A DNA stretch of 64,000 nt from Gluconobacter japonicus. GTDB lineage: Bacteria > Pseudomonadota > Alphaproteobacteria > Acetobacterales > Acetobacteraceae. Below, in pieces: positions 15,368 through 19,313 of the stretch. Both the position numbers and the translations under genes were made by a program. How positions within the stretch are numbered: the first letter of the stretch is position 1; each line of letters begins with the position of its first letter. The notes below the pieces were generated by a model, which saw only the letters and a program-made list of their open reading frames with translations, made no database searches and was not told the DNA's origin. Location of the stretch: NCBI RefSeq assembly GCF_002723975.1, contig NZ_BEWO01000001.1:124001-188000 (forward strand). Reading direction: 5' to 3'.

Positions 15368-15784
15368 ATGCCCGTGATGCTCGATCCTTCTACACTTCCA
15401 TCCGTCAATATTCTTGGCCTGGCCCAGTCTGGAGCCATTCTTCGCGCCGAACGCGAAACTGCGCCCAACGGAATACCAGCCTTCATTACGAAAGAAGGCT
15501 GGAACGAGTTGATTGCAGCCCATGCTGATAATCATACGGCGCCTCATACAGTCGTGCTTCCTGCGCTTGAGAAAGCCGTTGCCCGTATTCTGTCCCACGC
15601 TGCCGAATCAGCTCAGAGTGAAGGGAAGACTGCTCCTGTCATCAGTCTGGAAAGCGACCTTTTCCAAAGTGATTCCACCCTTATTCTGGCTTTTGTCCGG
15701 GATGAAACCCACCCTGTTGCCTGCGCTTTGATAGGTACTGCAGGCCACCTGGTTGATATGCTTAGGGGCGACGGATCAATTTAA
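15368..15784 (+). CDS. Hypothetical protein
   Basis: An unrecognised 138-residue protein without signal peptide or membrane segment. The N-terminus (MPVMLDPSTLPSVNILGLAQ) is followed by an alpha-beta pattern, including VISLESDLFQSDSTLILAFV and a hydrophobic tail region ACALIGTAGHLVDML. Its last nine bases overlap the convergent fliJ-like gene. Position next to fliJ and fliI might hint at a flagellar link, but the strand is opposite and there is no further support. Confidence 0.6.
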   Translation: MPVMLDPSTLPSVNILGLAQSGAILRAERETAPNGIPAFITKEGWNELIAAHADNHTAPHTVVLPALEKAVARILSHAAESAQSEGKTAPVISLESDLFQSDSTLILAFVRDETHPVACALIGTAGHLVDMLRGDGSI

Positions 15785-16201
15785 AGTTCTCTGCCGTAGC
15801 GCCAACTCATCCAGAACGGCCTGTTCTTTACGAAGATGCTGCTGCTGAATTTCGACCCGCTGCTTCTCTTCCAGCTTTTCCACGGCCTTCAGGGCTGCCT
15901 GTGCCATCAGAAGAGCTGACCGGATGCAATCCCTGTCCATGGCAGCCTGCCGACATTTTTCCTGAGCATCAGAAATGGCCTGCTGCCCGACAGGGAGCCA
16001 ACGACTGAATGCTTCCACTGCTCCATCGTCAGCCGCTGGATCAGAAGCCAGCTTTTGCTCCGTCAGAAGGTGCTGGTGCTTCTGTCCCAGAAGCGTTTCT
16101 GCGGCTGCCTCGCGGGCAACAGCCTCTCCAAAAGCCTTTTCCACATCTGCCAGTTCATGGCGTCTCAGGCGACGAAGAGCCTCAAGCGGCATCTGCCTCA
16201 T
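15776..16201 (-). CDS. fliJ: FliJ-like flagellar coiled-coil protein
   Basis: A 141-residue, highly charged and almost wholly helical protein, predicted as a long coiled coil (for example ADVEKAFGEAVAREAAAETL and AALKAVEKLEEKQRVEIQQQ). FliJ is the soluble stalk-like component that works with the FliI ATPase in flagellar type III export, and it normally has this length and composition. The call rests on this and on its place 20 bases downstream of fliI on the same strand. Sequence conservation in FliJ is low, so the assignment is by context more than by motif. Confidence 0.7.
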   Translation of the reverse strand: MRQMPLEALRRLRRHELADVEKAFGEAVAREAAAETLLGQKHQHLLTEQKLASDPAADDGAVEAFSRWLPVGQQAISDAQEKCRQAAMDRDCIRSALLMAQAALKAVEKLEEKQRVEIQQQHLRKEQAVLDELALRQRTLN

Positions 16202-16221: not shown

Positions 16222-17598
16222 TCAGGCTGCGGAAGCCATGATGGTTCCAAGCTGCTCAAAGGCCTCCAGGCACCTTGAGCGTTCATTTTTTCCCTGAGAC
16301 AGAAACGCATCCAGTTGAGGCATCAGGCGAATAGCCTCATCCACGTCTTTCTCTGTCCCGGATTTGTAAGCACCCAGCCGGATCATATCGGCCATGCGTT
16401 CATAGGTTGCCATGATCGCCCGCGCCTGGCGGGTTAATCGGTTTTCTTCCGCCGAATTACATCCGGGAACAGCTCGAGACAGGGAGCGAAGAACGTCGAT
16501 TGCCGGATACCGCCCCTGCTCTCCGATCTTCCGATCAAGAATGATATGACCATCGAGAATGCCGCGCACAGCATCAGCAACCGGCTCGTTATGGTCATCC
16601 CCCTCCACCAGGACCGTGAACAGAGCCGTAATCATGCCCTGCCCGGGATAGCCCGGCCCCGCCCGCTCCAGCAATTTCGGTAATTCGGCAAAAACAGAAG
16701 GTGGGTAACCCCGTGTCGCGGGGGGTTCTCCGGCTGACAAACCGATTTCGCGCAAAGCCATGCAATAGCGGGTTACGCTGTCCATCAGAAGCAGAACCGA
16801 TTTGCCCTGATCACGAAAATACTCGGCGATGGCCATGGCAGAAACAGCTGCATCACGGCGCATCAAGGGAGGCGTGTCCGATGTCGCAATGACAACGACG
16901 CTCCGTGCAAGCCCTTCCGGACCAAGGTCGTCTTCGATGAATTCCCGGACTTCTCGGCCTCGCTCTCCCACGAGTGCAATGACCGCGACATCAAAGTCCG
17001 CGCCTCGGACCAGCATAGACAATAGCGTTGATTTACCAACACCAGATCCTGCAAACAGGCCTAACCTTTGCCCGCGCCGACATGTTGTAAATGCATCAAG
17101 CGCCCTGACCCCCAGATCAATTCTGTCTCCAAGTCTGGCGCGGGTCGCAGCATTTGGGGGCGAACTGAGTACCGGCTGCTGAGTCAGGGCAGGAATCAGG
17201 GGTCCCTTGCCGTCCATCGGTACACCAAGCGGATCAATAACACGCCCCAACCAGCTCTCATTCACGCCAAGAGAGGCACAGGACTGTCCACTTAGAGGAA
17301 TCTGTGCCTCACAACCGGGTCCAATACCTTCAAGGCTTCCAAACGCCATCACTCTGGCTTGCGCCTCATGAAACCCTACAACCTCTGACTGTATGGTGCT
17401 TCCAGAACGTGCATGAATTACGATTCGATCCCCGATTGAAACGAGTCCTTCCAGACCACGGATTGTCACACACAGACCTGTCACGTCCTGAACGGTTCCC
17501 ACTGCACCGTCAGGTTGCAAATTAGCCACCTTCTCCAGAAGCTTCTCAAGGAAACTTGGAGACGAGTATTTCCGCTGTTTTTCCGTGGCTTCTGGCAT
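16222..17598 (-). CDS. fliI: Flagellum-specific ATP synthase FliI
   Basis: The 458-residue ATPase of the flagellar type III export apparatus, related to the F1 beta subunit. The Walker A motif GLFAGSGVGKSTLLS is near residue 185, followed by ALVGERGREVREF and the Walker B region SVLLLMDSVTRY. GEPPATRGYPPSVFAELPKL is the family-typical stretch. It acts on the cytoplasmic face of the flagellar base. It is followed by the fliJ-like gene and diverges from ctrA, with a shared 152-base upstream region; CtrA controls flagellar genes in other alphaproteobacteria. Confidence 0.95.
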   Translation of the reverse strand: MPEATEKQRKYSSPSFLEKLLEKVANLQPDGAVGTVQDVTGLCVTIRGLEGLVSIGDRIVIHARSGSTIQSEVVGFHEAQARVMAFGSLEGIGPGCEAQIPLSGQSCASLGVNESWLGRVIDPLGVPMDGKGPLIPALTQQPVLSSPPNAATRARLGDRIDLGVRALDAFTTCRRGQRLGLFAGSGVGKSTLLSMLVRGADFDVAVIALVGERGREVREFIEDDLGPEGLARSVVVIATSDTPPLMRRDAAVSAMAIAEYFRDQGKSVLLLMDSVTRYCMALREIGLSAGEPPATRGYPPSVFAELPKLLERAGPGYPGQGMITALFTVLVEGDDHNEPVADAVRGILDGHIILDRKIGEQGRYPAIDVLRSLSRAVPGCNSAEENRLTRQARAIMATYERMADMIRLGAYKSGTEKDVDEAIRLMPQLDAFLSQGKNERSRCLEAFEQLGTIMASAA

Positions 17599-17622
17599 CT
17601 TTAGAACGCTAAGCTGAAAGGG

Positions 17623-17637
17623 TTAACAAAAGTTGAA
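17623..17637. promoter_or_regulatory. Possible CtrA box in the fliI-ctrA intergenic region
   Basis: TTAA at 17623, seven bases, then TGAA at 17634. This is one mismatch from the TTAA-N7-TTAA consensus for CtrA binding known from Caulobacter. It lies 25 bases before the fliI start and 114 bases before ctrA. The motif is short and such near-matches occur by chance, so this is suggestive only. Confidence 0.3.
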
Positions 17638-17750
17638 GCCGCATTGCCACATGACGGAATAATGAAAAATTTACGATTTTCCGTTTCTATCTATCGACAT
17701 TTACAACCTTGGGTAGTAACCATTGCTTTACCAATCCTGGAGTTGAAAAC

Positions 17751-18494
17751 ATGCGTATCCTTCTTGTTGAGAGTGATCTTCAAGCCGCAGCGATCCTGTC
17801 CCAGATCCTGCGGACTGCGGCTTTCACCGTAGATCACACAGCCTCCGGCGAAGAAGCCATCGAGATGCTTCGTCATTACGATTACGATGTGATGGTTCTC
17901 GAGCTGCTGCTGAACGACATTGAAGGATATGACGTCATTCGCCGGGTACGCTCCTCCCGGATCACGACCCCCATTCTCGTTCTTTCTGCCCTGCTGCGCC
18001 CCCAGGCCAAGATCCGTGCATTCTCAATGGGTGCAGATGATTATATGGCCAAGCCCTACGATCCAGGCGAACTGATCGCTCGCCTTCAGGCAGTCATGCG
18101 TCGGTCCCGCGGGTTTGCTGAACCCTGTCTGCGAGTTGGAAATCTGGAACTCGATCTGAATGGCAAGAACGTCACCGTCGACGGAACGGCCCTGCATCTT
18201 ACAGGCAAGGAATATGCCATTCTGGAACTTCTGATCATCCGCAAAGGGTCAGTATTGACGAAAGACGCCTTCCTGAACCACCTCTATGGCGGCATCGACG
18301 AGCCGGAAATGAAGATCATTGACGTCTTCATCTGCAAACTTCGCCGCAAACTCCAGAAAGCCGGGGCAGAAAACCTGATCGCAACCGTATGGGGGCGCGG
18401 CTACATTCTGCGTGACGAACCAGCGACCGAAACCAGCTCTGCCGTACCGGAGCATCAGACCCGTACGCCTCAACCCGTCACAACATTCGCCTGA
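17751..18494 (+). CDS. ctrA: CtrA-family response regulator with Glu at the phosphorylation site
   Basis: A 247-residue OmpR/PhoB-type regulator matching CtrA, the master cell-cycle and motility regulator of alphaproteobacteria. The output domain (HLTGKEYAILELL, LTKDAFLNHLYGG, EMKIIDVFICKLRRKL) is nearly identical to what I recall of Caulobacter CtrA. In the receiver domain, residue 51, normally the phosphorylated Asp, is Glu (codon GAG in MVLELLLND), and residue 8 of the acidic pocket is Ser (VESD). Asp9, the Ser in VLSALL and the Lys in MAKPYD are kept. The C-terminus is FA instead of the AA degron. The start at 17751 has GGAG upstream and gives the canonical MRILLVE beginning. It diverges from fliI. 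Confidence 0.9.
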   Translation: MRILLVESDLQAAAILSQILRTAAFTVDHTASGEEAIEMLRHYDYDVMVLELLLNDIEGYDVIRRVRSSRITTPILVLSALLRPQAKIRAFSMGADDYMAKPYDPGELIARLQAVMRRSRGFAEPCLRVGNLELDLNGKNVTVDGTALHLTGKEYAILELLIIRKGSVLTKDAFLNHLYGGIDEPEMKIIDVFICKLRRKLQKAGAENLIATVWGRGYILRDEPATETSSAVPEHQTRTPQPVTTFA

Positions 18495-18503
18495 AAACAG
18501 CTT

Positions 18504-19313
18504 TCAGGATTGGTGCCATTCAGGCCGGATCGTTACCCCATGATCGACCGGCCCGTGCCCCTGCCCCAATCCGGGAGCATGTGACAGCGCCAGTCTGAGA
18601 TATTGGCTTCCCCGCCGAACGGCAGCGTCCAAATTCGTACCTTGTGCAATCCCAGTCGCAATTGCACTGGCCAGAGTACATCCCGTTCCATGCGTATGGA
18701 GGGTCTTTAGCCTCTCGCCACGAAGAACAACTTCGCTTCCATCAGAAAAAACCAGTAAATCCTCTAGGTCATCGCTCCGCAGATGCCCTCCTTTCAGGAG
18801 AACGGCCTGCGCACCTTGCTTCTGCAACTGATGCGCTGCAACACGCATTTCCTCCAGATCCGTAATGACCAGTCCGGTCATAACTTCAGCTTCCGGAATA
18901 TTGGGTGTCACAACCAGAGCGCGAGGAAGCAGGCGGCTCATCACGGCTTCCACTGCCTCCGCGTCCAGCAGAACCGAGCCGCTCGTGGACACCATGACAG
19001 GATCCAGAACCAGCGGCAGTTCTGAGCGAAGCGACAGTTCGTCTGCTACCGCATGAACGATTGCAGCATTGGACAACATGCCTGTTTTGCAGCAATCCGC
19101 TCCCAGATCATCCAGAACAACCTGCATCTGCTGACGAACAAAGGCAGGCGAGACAGCCTCGACCCCGAACACACCTAACGTGTTCTGAGCCGTCAAAGCT
19201 GTAATGGCACTCATGCCAAACCCACCCAGCGCCATGATGGTTTTGAGATCGGCCTGAATTCCGGCTCCCCCGCCCGAATCACTCCCAGCAACGGTCAGAA
19301 CCCGACCGATCAT
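18504..19313 (-). CDS. thiD: Hydroxymethylpyrimidine/phosphomethylpyrimidine kinase
   Basis: Phosphorylates HMP and HMP-phosphate to give HMP-diphosphate for thiamine synthesis. The 269-residue protein shows TVAGSDSGGGAGIQADLKT at the N-terminus, the GFGMSAITALTAQNTLGV stretch, LVLDPVMVSTSG, and the C-terminal anion-hole motif HTHGTGCTLASAIA. It starts 3 bases after glmM and is probably cotranscribed with it. I see no TPP riboswitch in front of it or of glmM. It is convergent with ctrA. Confidence 0.94.
   Translation of the reverse strand: MIGRVLTVAGSDSGGGAGIQADLKTIMALGGFGMSAITALTAQNTLGVFGVEAVSPAFVRQQMQVVLDDLGADCCKTGMLSNAAIVHAVADELSLRSELPLVLDPVMVSTSGSVLLDAEAVEAVMSRLLPRALVVTPNIPEAEVMTGLVITDLEEMRVAAHQLQKQGAQAVLLKGGHLRSDDLEDLLVFSDGSEVVLRGERLKTLHTHGTGCTLASAIATGIAQGTNLDAAVRRGSQYLRLALSHAPGLGQGHGPVDHGVTIRPEWHQS

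Follow-up and report, generated by a model that had tools for sequence, protein, structure and literature searches.

A CtrA response regulator with glutamate at the phospho-acceptor position in Gluconobacter and other acetic acid bacteria without detectable ChpT

The window, a stretch of 64,000 nucleotides from Gluconobacter japonicus, carries a ctrA gene between genes for flagellar export and for ThiD. The features of the gene and its neighbours are the following.

17751..18494, + strand: ctrA, OmpR-type response regulator of 247 aa (translation, domain matches, genome search)
17751..18104, + strand: receiver domain, residues 1-118 (Response_reg match 3-112)
17772..17774, + strand: codon 8, AGT, Ser replacing a pocket Asp
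17901..17903, + strand: codon 51, GAG, Glu replacing the phospho-acceptor Asp
18123..18416, + strand: winged-helix DNA-binding domain, residues 125-222 (Trans_reg_C match 145-220)
18417..18491, + strand: unconserved tail ending in FA, without the AA degron (dN/dS about 0.7 in Gluconobacter)
16222..17598, - strand: fliI, flagellar export ATPase, divergent neighbour upstream of ctrA (TIGR03498 over cut-off)
15776..16201, - strand: fliJ, beyond fliI (PF02050 over cut-off; TIGR02473 under its cut-off)
18504..19313, - strand: thiD, convergent neighbour downstream of ctrA (TIGR00097 over cut-off)

An earlier, sequence-only reading had placed Glu at position 51 and Ser at position 8 of the protein, counted from the MRILLVE start, and the codons GAG and AGT bear this out. 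The translation starts MRILLVESD and retains Asp9, Ser79 and Lys101. Ser79 and Lys101 are the conserved Ser/Thr and Lys; residue 8 is presumably the equivalent of CheY D13. Neither Pfam domain (Response_reg, Trans_reg_C) is disrupted, and among NCBIfam models CtrA fits best, with 325.7 bits, below its 350-bit cut-off. By its receiver and its winged helix with the CtrA recognition region the protein is a CtrA ortholog, and it is closer to the CtrA of its relatives than to any other regulator of its genome. The divergent fliI neighbour is an arrangement that the window shares with many relatives that carry D51. A phosphorylatable receiver has the acceptor Asp and both pocket acids; this one has E51 and S8. 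It is thus an aspartate-less receiver, with the receiver fold (Response_reg match) and no acceptor Asp.

The nearest named relatives among the best 80 of 366 related loci belong to Gluconobacter thailandicus (93% identity) and G. frateurii (91%), and the ten best matches outside the family reach 53-59%. Compared with 51 CtrA loci from the rest of the class, mean identity is 64% in the DNA-binding domain and 47% in the receiver; residues 184-200 are near-identical to those of other CtrAs (85%). The claim of a CtrA-like DNA-binding domain therefore holds against these 51 loci, among which Caulobacter's own sequence is not included. Two explanations could be dismissed. A second ctrA with intact Asp51 was sought in the window's genome (3.16 Mb, 99.99% complete) and rejected, as only a single CtrA was found and the next response regulator is 36% identical. 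Furthermore, E51 recurs in independently sequenced species, and a sequencing error at codon 51 is therefore excluded.

We aligned CtrA across the family and the class to trace the loss of D51. Among the best 80 of the 366 related loci, taken from a scan of named genomes, 47 have E51 and 33 have D51. The 47 E51 loci all carry labels of acetic acid bacteria, namely Gluconobacter, Neokomagataea, Tanticharoenia, Brytella, Acetobacter, Acidomonas, Asaia, Swaminathania, Saccharibacter or Gluconacetobacter. The D51 loci of this set come from Belnapia, Acidisphaera, Limobrevibacterium, Craurococcus and metagenome-assembled genomes (MAGs) under various labels; D8 and K101 are kept in 33 out of 33. Every named Gluconobacter, Asaia, Neokomagataea and Gluconacetobacter locus in the same best 80 has E51 except one D51 MAG, L102, which is labelled Asaia bogorensis and may be mislabelled. 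In the wider class, 142 genomes were searched and 91 gave a match, the window's own included; we read 51 loci from 50 of these genomes (11 best and 40 hand-picked), all outside the family, and D8, D51 and K101 are kept in all 51. By these comparisons E51 is a clade-wide trait and not a peculiarity of the window's strain.

CtrA is a cell-cycle and motility regulator which outside the acetic acid bacteria is phosphorylated through ChpT, and textbooks present its phosphorylation as the point at which the cell cycle of Alphaproteobacteria is controlled. We asked for the partners of the relay. ChpT was sought as PF10090 in 98 family genomes (52 + 46), with a positive Caulobacter control, and scored present in 26. 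The window's genome (G000) gave no match to PF10090. G390, G009, G192 and G001 were counted as negative, since their matches are weak and lie inside frames longer than 600 residues. In the E51 genomes G390 and G009 this match is short and lies within a long kinase-like frame; in G001 it reaches the cut-off when combined with its neighbours.

The state of the phospho-pocket follows the presence of ChpT. The set E/D7-D8-D51-S79-K101 is kept in 23 of 23 ChpT-positive genomes with a full CtrA read; of the remaining ChpT-positive genomes, G012 and G034 have no CtrA match (E <= 1e-45) and G062 has a broken one. The same set occurs in only four of 62 ChpT-negative genomes with a full CtrA (G013, G030, G316 and G333). 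The other 58 comprise 43 with E51, six with D51 in a changed pocket and nine with another residue, two of which (G068 and G096, 41-42% identity) are of doubtful orthology. Ten further ChpT-negative genomes, in which CtrA was not read, truncated, dropped or absent, were left out. Conversely, ChpT was scored absent in 43 of 43 E51 genomes tested. Three ChpT-negative Acetobacter genomes keep D8, D51, S79 and K101 and differ at D9 alone, which is K; G013 likewise keeps these four residues. The link between ChpT loss and pocket change would provide a simple marker, readable from genome data, for whether the relay works.

CckA gave a less clear-cut picture. As query we used a CckA-like protein from a ChpT-positive genome and scored the strongest candidates, at most 21 per genome. 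With this sampling, a match at E <= 5.4e-93 was obtained in 14 of 21 ChpT-positive genomes, one of them the source of the query (44-60% identity in the 13 others), and the remaining seven were ambiguous (four at 1.2e-78 to 3.5e-75, three at 1.1e-72 to 4.2e-71). None of 46 ChpT-negative genomes had a match better than 2.1e-73 among its strongest candidates, again at most 21. The best match in the window's genome, under the same limit, reached 7.1e-62 with 38% identity and covered the kinase-REC core only. This genome has 13 HisKA matches, 12 of them over the cut-off and hybrid kinases among them. In a domain-based approach we took the HisKA matches of three genomes and compared four proteins with NCBIfam and three with PDB. 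The NCBIfam CckA models gave 298.6 bits for L192, 296.3 for L193 and 405 for a ChpT-positive control, all below the cut-off of 1000. Both L192 and L193 are AHDFNNLL-type REC hybrid kinases of the window's genome; the general model PRK13557 ranks best for L192, and the CckA model ranks first, weakly, for L193. PDB did not discriminate, chain 5idj being the best match for all three such kinases. Because of the best match of L193 we grade CckA in the window's genome as 'not clear' rather than 'absent': no clear ortholog stands out.

Four small REC or REC-like proteins of the window's genome were considered as CpdR and rejected: two score 61 and 63 bits against a cut-off of 180, and the other two are not among the matches of the CpdR model. 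GcrA is kept in 59 of 60 panel genomes, the exception being the ChpT-positive G031. The sequence-only reading had proposed that this CtrA is not controlled by the CckA-ChpT phosphorelay and had pointed to chpT, cckA and cpdR as the genes to look for. Of these, ChpT was not detected, no CpdR was recognised among the four small proteins compared, and CckA carries the above reservation about L193. With ChpT undetected, no clear CckA and one acid of the pocket also gone, it is very unlikely that the CckA-ChpT relay controls CtrA in the window's genome; judged from gene content and residues, relay independence of CtrA is well supported.

Within the relay-less clade, position 51 is E in 42 of 55 members and D, A, H or T in the other 13; E can thus be dispensed with. 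Of the same 55 members, 45 have another residue in place of D8, 52 keep S79, and 51 have K or R at position 101. Given this variation, E51 may matter less than the sequence-only reading assumes. Several loci deserve mention in their own right. In genus g60 (L161, L163, L165, L166, L170, L182), three genomes have E51 and three D51, all with P8 and N9. Strongly diverged CtrA-like proteins occur in ChpT-negative genomes (L184 and L187 of genus g41, L188, L189, L190), with altered pockets that have N, E, R or S at 51. One ChpT-positive genome with an intact main CtrA contains a second, CtrA-like paralog, L200 (G016:C9), which has G51. Finally, a CtrA match at E <= 1e-45 is missing in seven of 80 family genomes (G117, G077, G100, G029, G116, G034 and G012), and GcrA is kept in all three of these that were tested (G100, G029, G116).

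To order these events we used trees containing CtrA rows only. A 59-row tree, calculated without the six pocket columns, unites the 39 acetic acid bacteria sampled, with a support of 93/97, just under the level of our starred branches. Position 51 needs six changes on this tree whether E or D is placed at the base of the clade, so a single gain of E51 at the base is not preferred. E51 arose at an early stage of the acetic acid bacteria, in one or several gains: a single origin at the base with reversion to D in core Acetobacter and repeated origins are equally parsimonious. With equal costs, D51E may or may not have coincided with the loss of the relay, and the three ChpT-negative Acetobacter with D51 may or may not be reversions. 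The D51 of genus g60 and of G046 are nested among E51 rows. G009, G295 and G387 combine E51 with intact D8D9 and K101; thus, D51E can precede the decay of the remaining pocket. A 108-row tree with long branches requires 14 changes at position 51 and four changes of ChpT state, with one independent pair on starred branches. The association of ChpT and pocket is therefore not statistically independent, with too few independent pairs for an independent-contrast test, and the association of ChpT with E51 is mainly one phylogenetic event rather than many.

Selection on the gene is uneven along its length. Among 21 Gluconobacter loci (median dS near 1), median dN/dS is 0.042 for the receiver, 0.027 for the DNA-binding domain and 0.73 for the tail; the D51 set gives 0.10-0.12, a value from very distant pairs that is not comparable with those of Gluconobacter. 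The receiver and the DNA-binding domain are under strong purifying selection, and the protein therefore works. We then compared 23 ChpT-positive rows with 42 E51 rows, leaving out seven deviant ChpT-negative rows and setting the helix limits ourselves. From the former to the latter, mean pairwise identity falls from 0.88 to 0.62 in the beta1 pocket, from 0.49 to 0.26 in alpha1 and from 0.72 to 0.53 in alpha3; the drop is small in alpha4-beta5-alpha5 (0.73 to 0.67) and in the DNA-binding domain (0.75 to 0.72). We take alpha1 to be the ChpT-docking face of CtrA and alpha4-beta5-alpha5 its dimer face. A relaxed docking face together with a kept dimer face is the pattern that a relay-free, dimer-forming regulator would show.

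For flagella we compared those genomes of the 60-genome panel that belong to the relay-less clade and gave a full CtrA, again without seven deviant rows. E51 is found in 23 of 28 genomes with FlhA (that of G273 is split) versus eight of 16 without it (p = 0.04, ignoring relatedness). As CtrA is kept in the 16 genomes without FlhA, it must have other roles too. At L008 (G000:C28:17230-20043) the window's genome has a second FlhA-like gene adjoining an OmpR-type regulator 32% identical to CtrA; this neighbourhood may represent another flagellar or export system under separate regulation.

At the C-terminus, FA in place of the AA degron had been read as a sign that ClpXP control may be altered. 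The change itself is a real lineage trend: the AA end occurs in none of 21 Gluconobacter, three Neokomagataea and seven Asaia/Swaminathania. Nevertheless, all 11 E51 Acetobacter of the nitrogenifigens group still end in AA, which makes the loss of this end a step separate from D51E. AA ends occur in 24 of the 33 D51 loci among the best 80 of 366 and in nine of 51 class-level CtrAs. DUF1465, which we equate with RcdA, has no match in any of the 60 panel genomes, D51 members included, with a positive Caulobacter control. An RcdA-dependent ClpXP substrate combines an AA C-terminus with RcdA; the window CtrA ends in FA, and the panel has no DUF1465 match.

The region between fliI and ctrA contains two short elements.

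17623..17637, + strand: TTAA-N7-TGAA, resembling a CtrA box with one mismatch, between the divergent fliI and ctrA; found at a conserved position in Gluconobacter
17703..17720, + strand: inverted repeat ACAACC-N3-GGTNGT, starting 48 nt before the ctrA ATG, family-specific

We counted as box-like any TTAA-N7-TTAA with up to one mismatch within 200 nt upstream. All 21 Gluconobacter have such a site (4.0 expected), placed at -127 to -129 and variable in its spacer; so have all seven Asaia/Swaminathania (1.6 expected) and all six genomes of genus g60 (1.3 expected), where five sites are exact. Their frequency is that of chance in Neokomagataea (2 of 3; 1.4 expected), E51 Acetobacter (1 of 11; 3.0) and D51 loci (2 of 31; 2.7), and likewise in the window scanned alone (3 sites, 2.96 expected). 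In the window, some 25 nt separate the site from the start of fliI, which it may serve. In the six g60 genomes no fliI was found within the sequence stretch examined beside ctrA, and the exact TTAA-N7-TTAA, about 140 nt upstream of ctrA in five of them, suggests possible autoregulation of ctrA.

The inverted repeat is found across the family. At 9 or more of its 11 fixed positions it matches 60 of 104 non-redundant family upstream regions (of 183; 2.1 expected) and none of 42 regions outside the family (0.8 expected). Of the 60 matches, 25 start at -46 to -50 and the remainder elsewhere; a second copy is present at some loci, most often 32 nt away. A weight matrix finds the element in 91 of the 104 regions, the same on which it was trained. 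An 18-base consensus with up to three mismatches occurs once per genome in five of six genomes, always just upstream of ctrA, and the window's element is the only such match in the window and in its genome. A reversed control pattern gives 1 to 4 matches per genome, and extra copies would be noticeable only above that background. Because the element accompanies D51 and E51 alike, it probably predates the loss of the relay. An RNA element was considered and rejected: no Rfam match was obtained for 17580-18500 up to E = 1, and the distance from the element to the ATG varies, which speaks for a DNA site.

Taken together, we propose that early acetic acid bacteria lost the CckA-ChpT phosphorelay and that Asp51 of their CtrA became Glu. 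Glu51 probably imitates the phosphorylated state in part, through the retained S79 and K101; CtrA would then dimerise through the alpha4-beta5-alpha5 face without a kinase, and the dimer would bind CtrA boxes, such as that between fliI and ctrA, kinase-free. Its output would be set mainly by the amount of protein made or kept. For E51 CtrA we thus infer an active state, dimerisation and control by amount: probably a natural relay-free CtrA that E51 holds active. For the CtrA of acetic acid bacteria we consider constitutive activity through E51 the likeliest mechanism, with a probability of roughly 55%. The D-to-E exchange alone, however, often fails to activate receivers (PMC4395418), which counts against this reading. 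More tentatively, control may have moved from phosphorylation to synthesis across the clade, with D51E coming first in an otherwise intact pocket, the relay replaced in one step and dosage set through the ctrA-promoter-specific ACAACC-N3-GGTNGT and a factor bound to it; we consider this full scenario possible but rather doubtful.

The main rival holds that residue 51 is no longer a switch: the receiver would be a dimerisation scaffold, active whatever sits at 51, and E51 the remnant of an early, tolerated substitution. The 13 clade members with D, A, H or T at 51 and the 45 with D8 replaced fit it well. Dependence on the residue at the D position has been disproved in some pseudo-receivers, Agrobacterium Rem is inhibited by MirA (PMC12632262), and ChxR with Asp or Ala at that position still binds DNA in vitro (PMC4395418). 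A free position 51 agrees poorly, though, with E51 in 42 of 55 members, with its occurrence in all named Gluconobacter, Asaia, Neokomagataea and Gluconacetobacter loci of the best 80 of 366 except the MAG L102, with the retention of S79 (52 of 55) and of K or R at 101 (51 of 55), or with non-E states being commoner in genomes without FlhA. We regard the scaffold as a serious but minority possibility.

A CtrA that is inactive, or used only in an unphosphorylated-like state as a relic or repressor, seems improbable to us, since dN/dS is 0.03-0.04 and three genera or groups conserve box-like sites upstream of the gene. In its favour, overexpression of a non-phosphorylatable D51A CtrA doubled gene transfer in Rhodobacter capsulatus, where the unphosphorylated protein has been proposed as the activator of gafA (PMC6363796). 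Similarly low is the chance that another kinase or acetyl phosphate still phosphorylates CtrA, here or at least in D51 Acetobacter. The three ChpT-negative Acetobacter genomes with D8, D51, S79 and K101, a D at the clade base as parsimonious as E, and the 13 HisKA matches of the window's genome (12 over the cut-off, hybrid kinases included) would allow it, but in the window CtrA the acceptor and one pocket acid are both replaced. A sequencing error and another intact CtrA within this genome are both to be regarded as refuted, given E51 in many independently sequenced species, a next regulator of 36% identity and a genome 99.99% complete. Constitutive activity through E51 thus remains our preferred reading.

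That the relay is patchy in Rhodospirillales is already known. Its members are missing to varying degrees, and Granulibacter has no ctrA (Brilli 2010, PMC2877005); chpT, cckA and divL occur in only 27-36% of genomes versus 72-82% for ctrA, gcrA and ccrM (Tomasch 2021, PMC8116508). D51 occurs in the main text of neither study. Caulobacter CtrA is discussed in PMC12733265, and the main text of PMC13214618 does not mention CtrA. We found no report of E51 in acetic acid bacterial CtrA in the open-access literature, subscription papers being outside our scope. New here are the residue change and its link to the loss of ChpT. In a large and industrially important clade, CtrA stays under strong selection although no relay can be detected. 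This shows how a phospho-switch can be lost and makes acetic acid bacteria natural species for testing phosphorylation-independent control of CtrA.

Among known systems, aspartate-less receivers and pseudo-receivers resemble the window CtrA in having a receiver without the acceptor Asp, and Glu is the commonest replacement (26% of aspartate-less receivers, PMC4395418). In contrast to these, here the master regulator of a known relay is affected; CtrA has no occurrence in the main texts of two reviews on such receivers. Rem, a different regulator from CtrA, governs motility. In Agrobacterium and relatives it is a pseudo-receiver regulator controlled by availability through its inhibitor MirA (PMC12632262). 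Caulobacter CtrA belongs to the same family as the window CtrA and has the same domain order. Unlike in Caulobacter, ChpT is undetected and CckA not clear, a further pocket acid is lost, and the AA end is lost in Gluconobacter. D51E was made in Caulobacter CtrA as a laboratory phosphomimetic (PMC12186491), whereas Glu51 is here the natural allele of most of a clade. If our reading is true, evolution made the same substitution that laboratories use.
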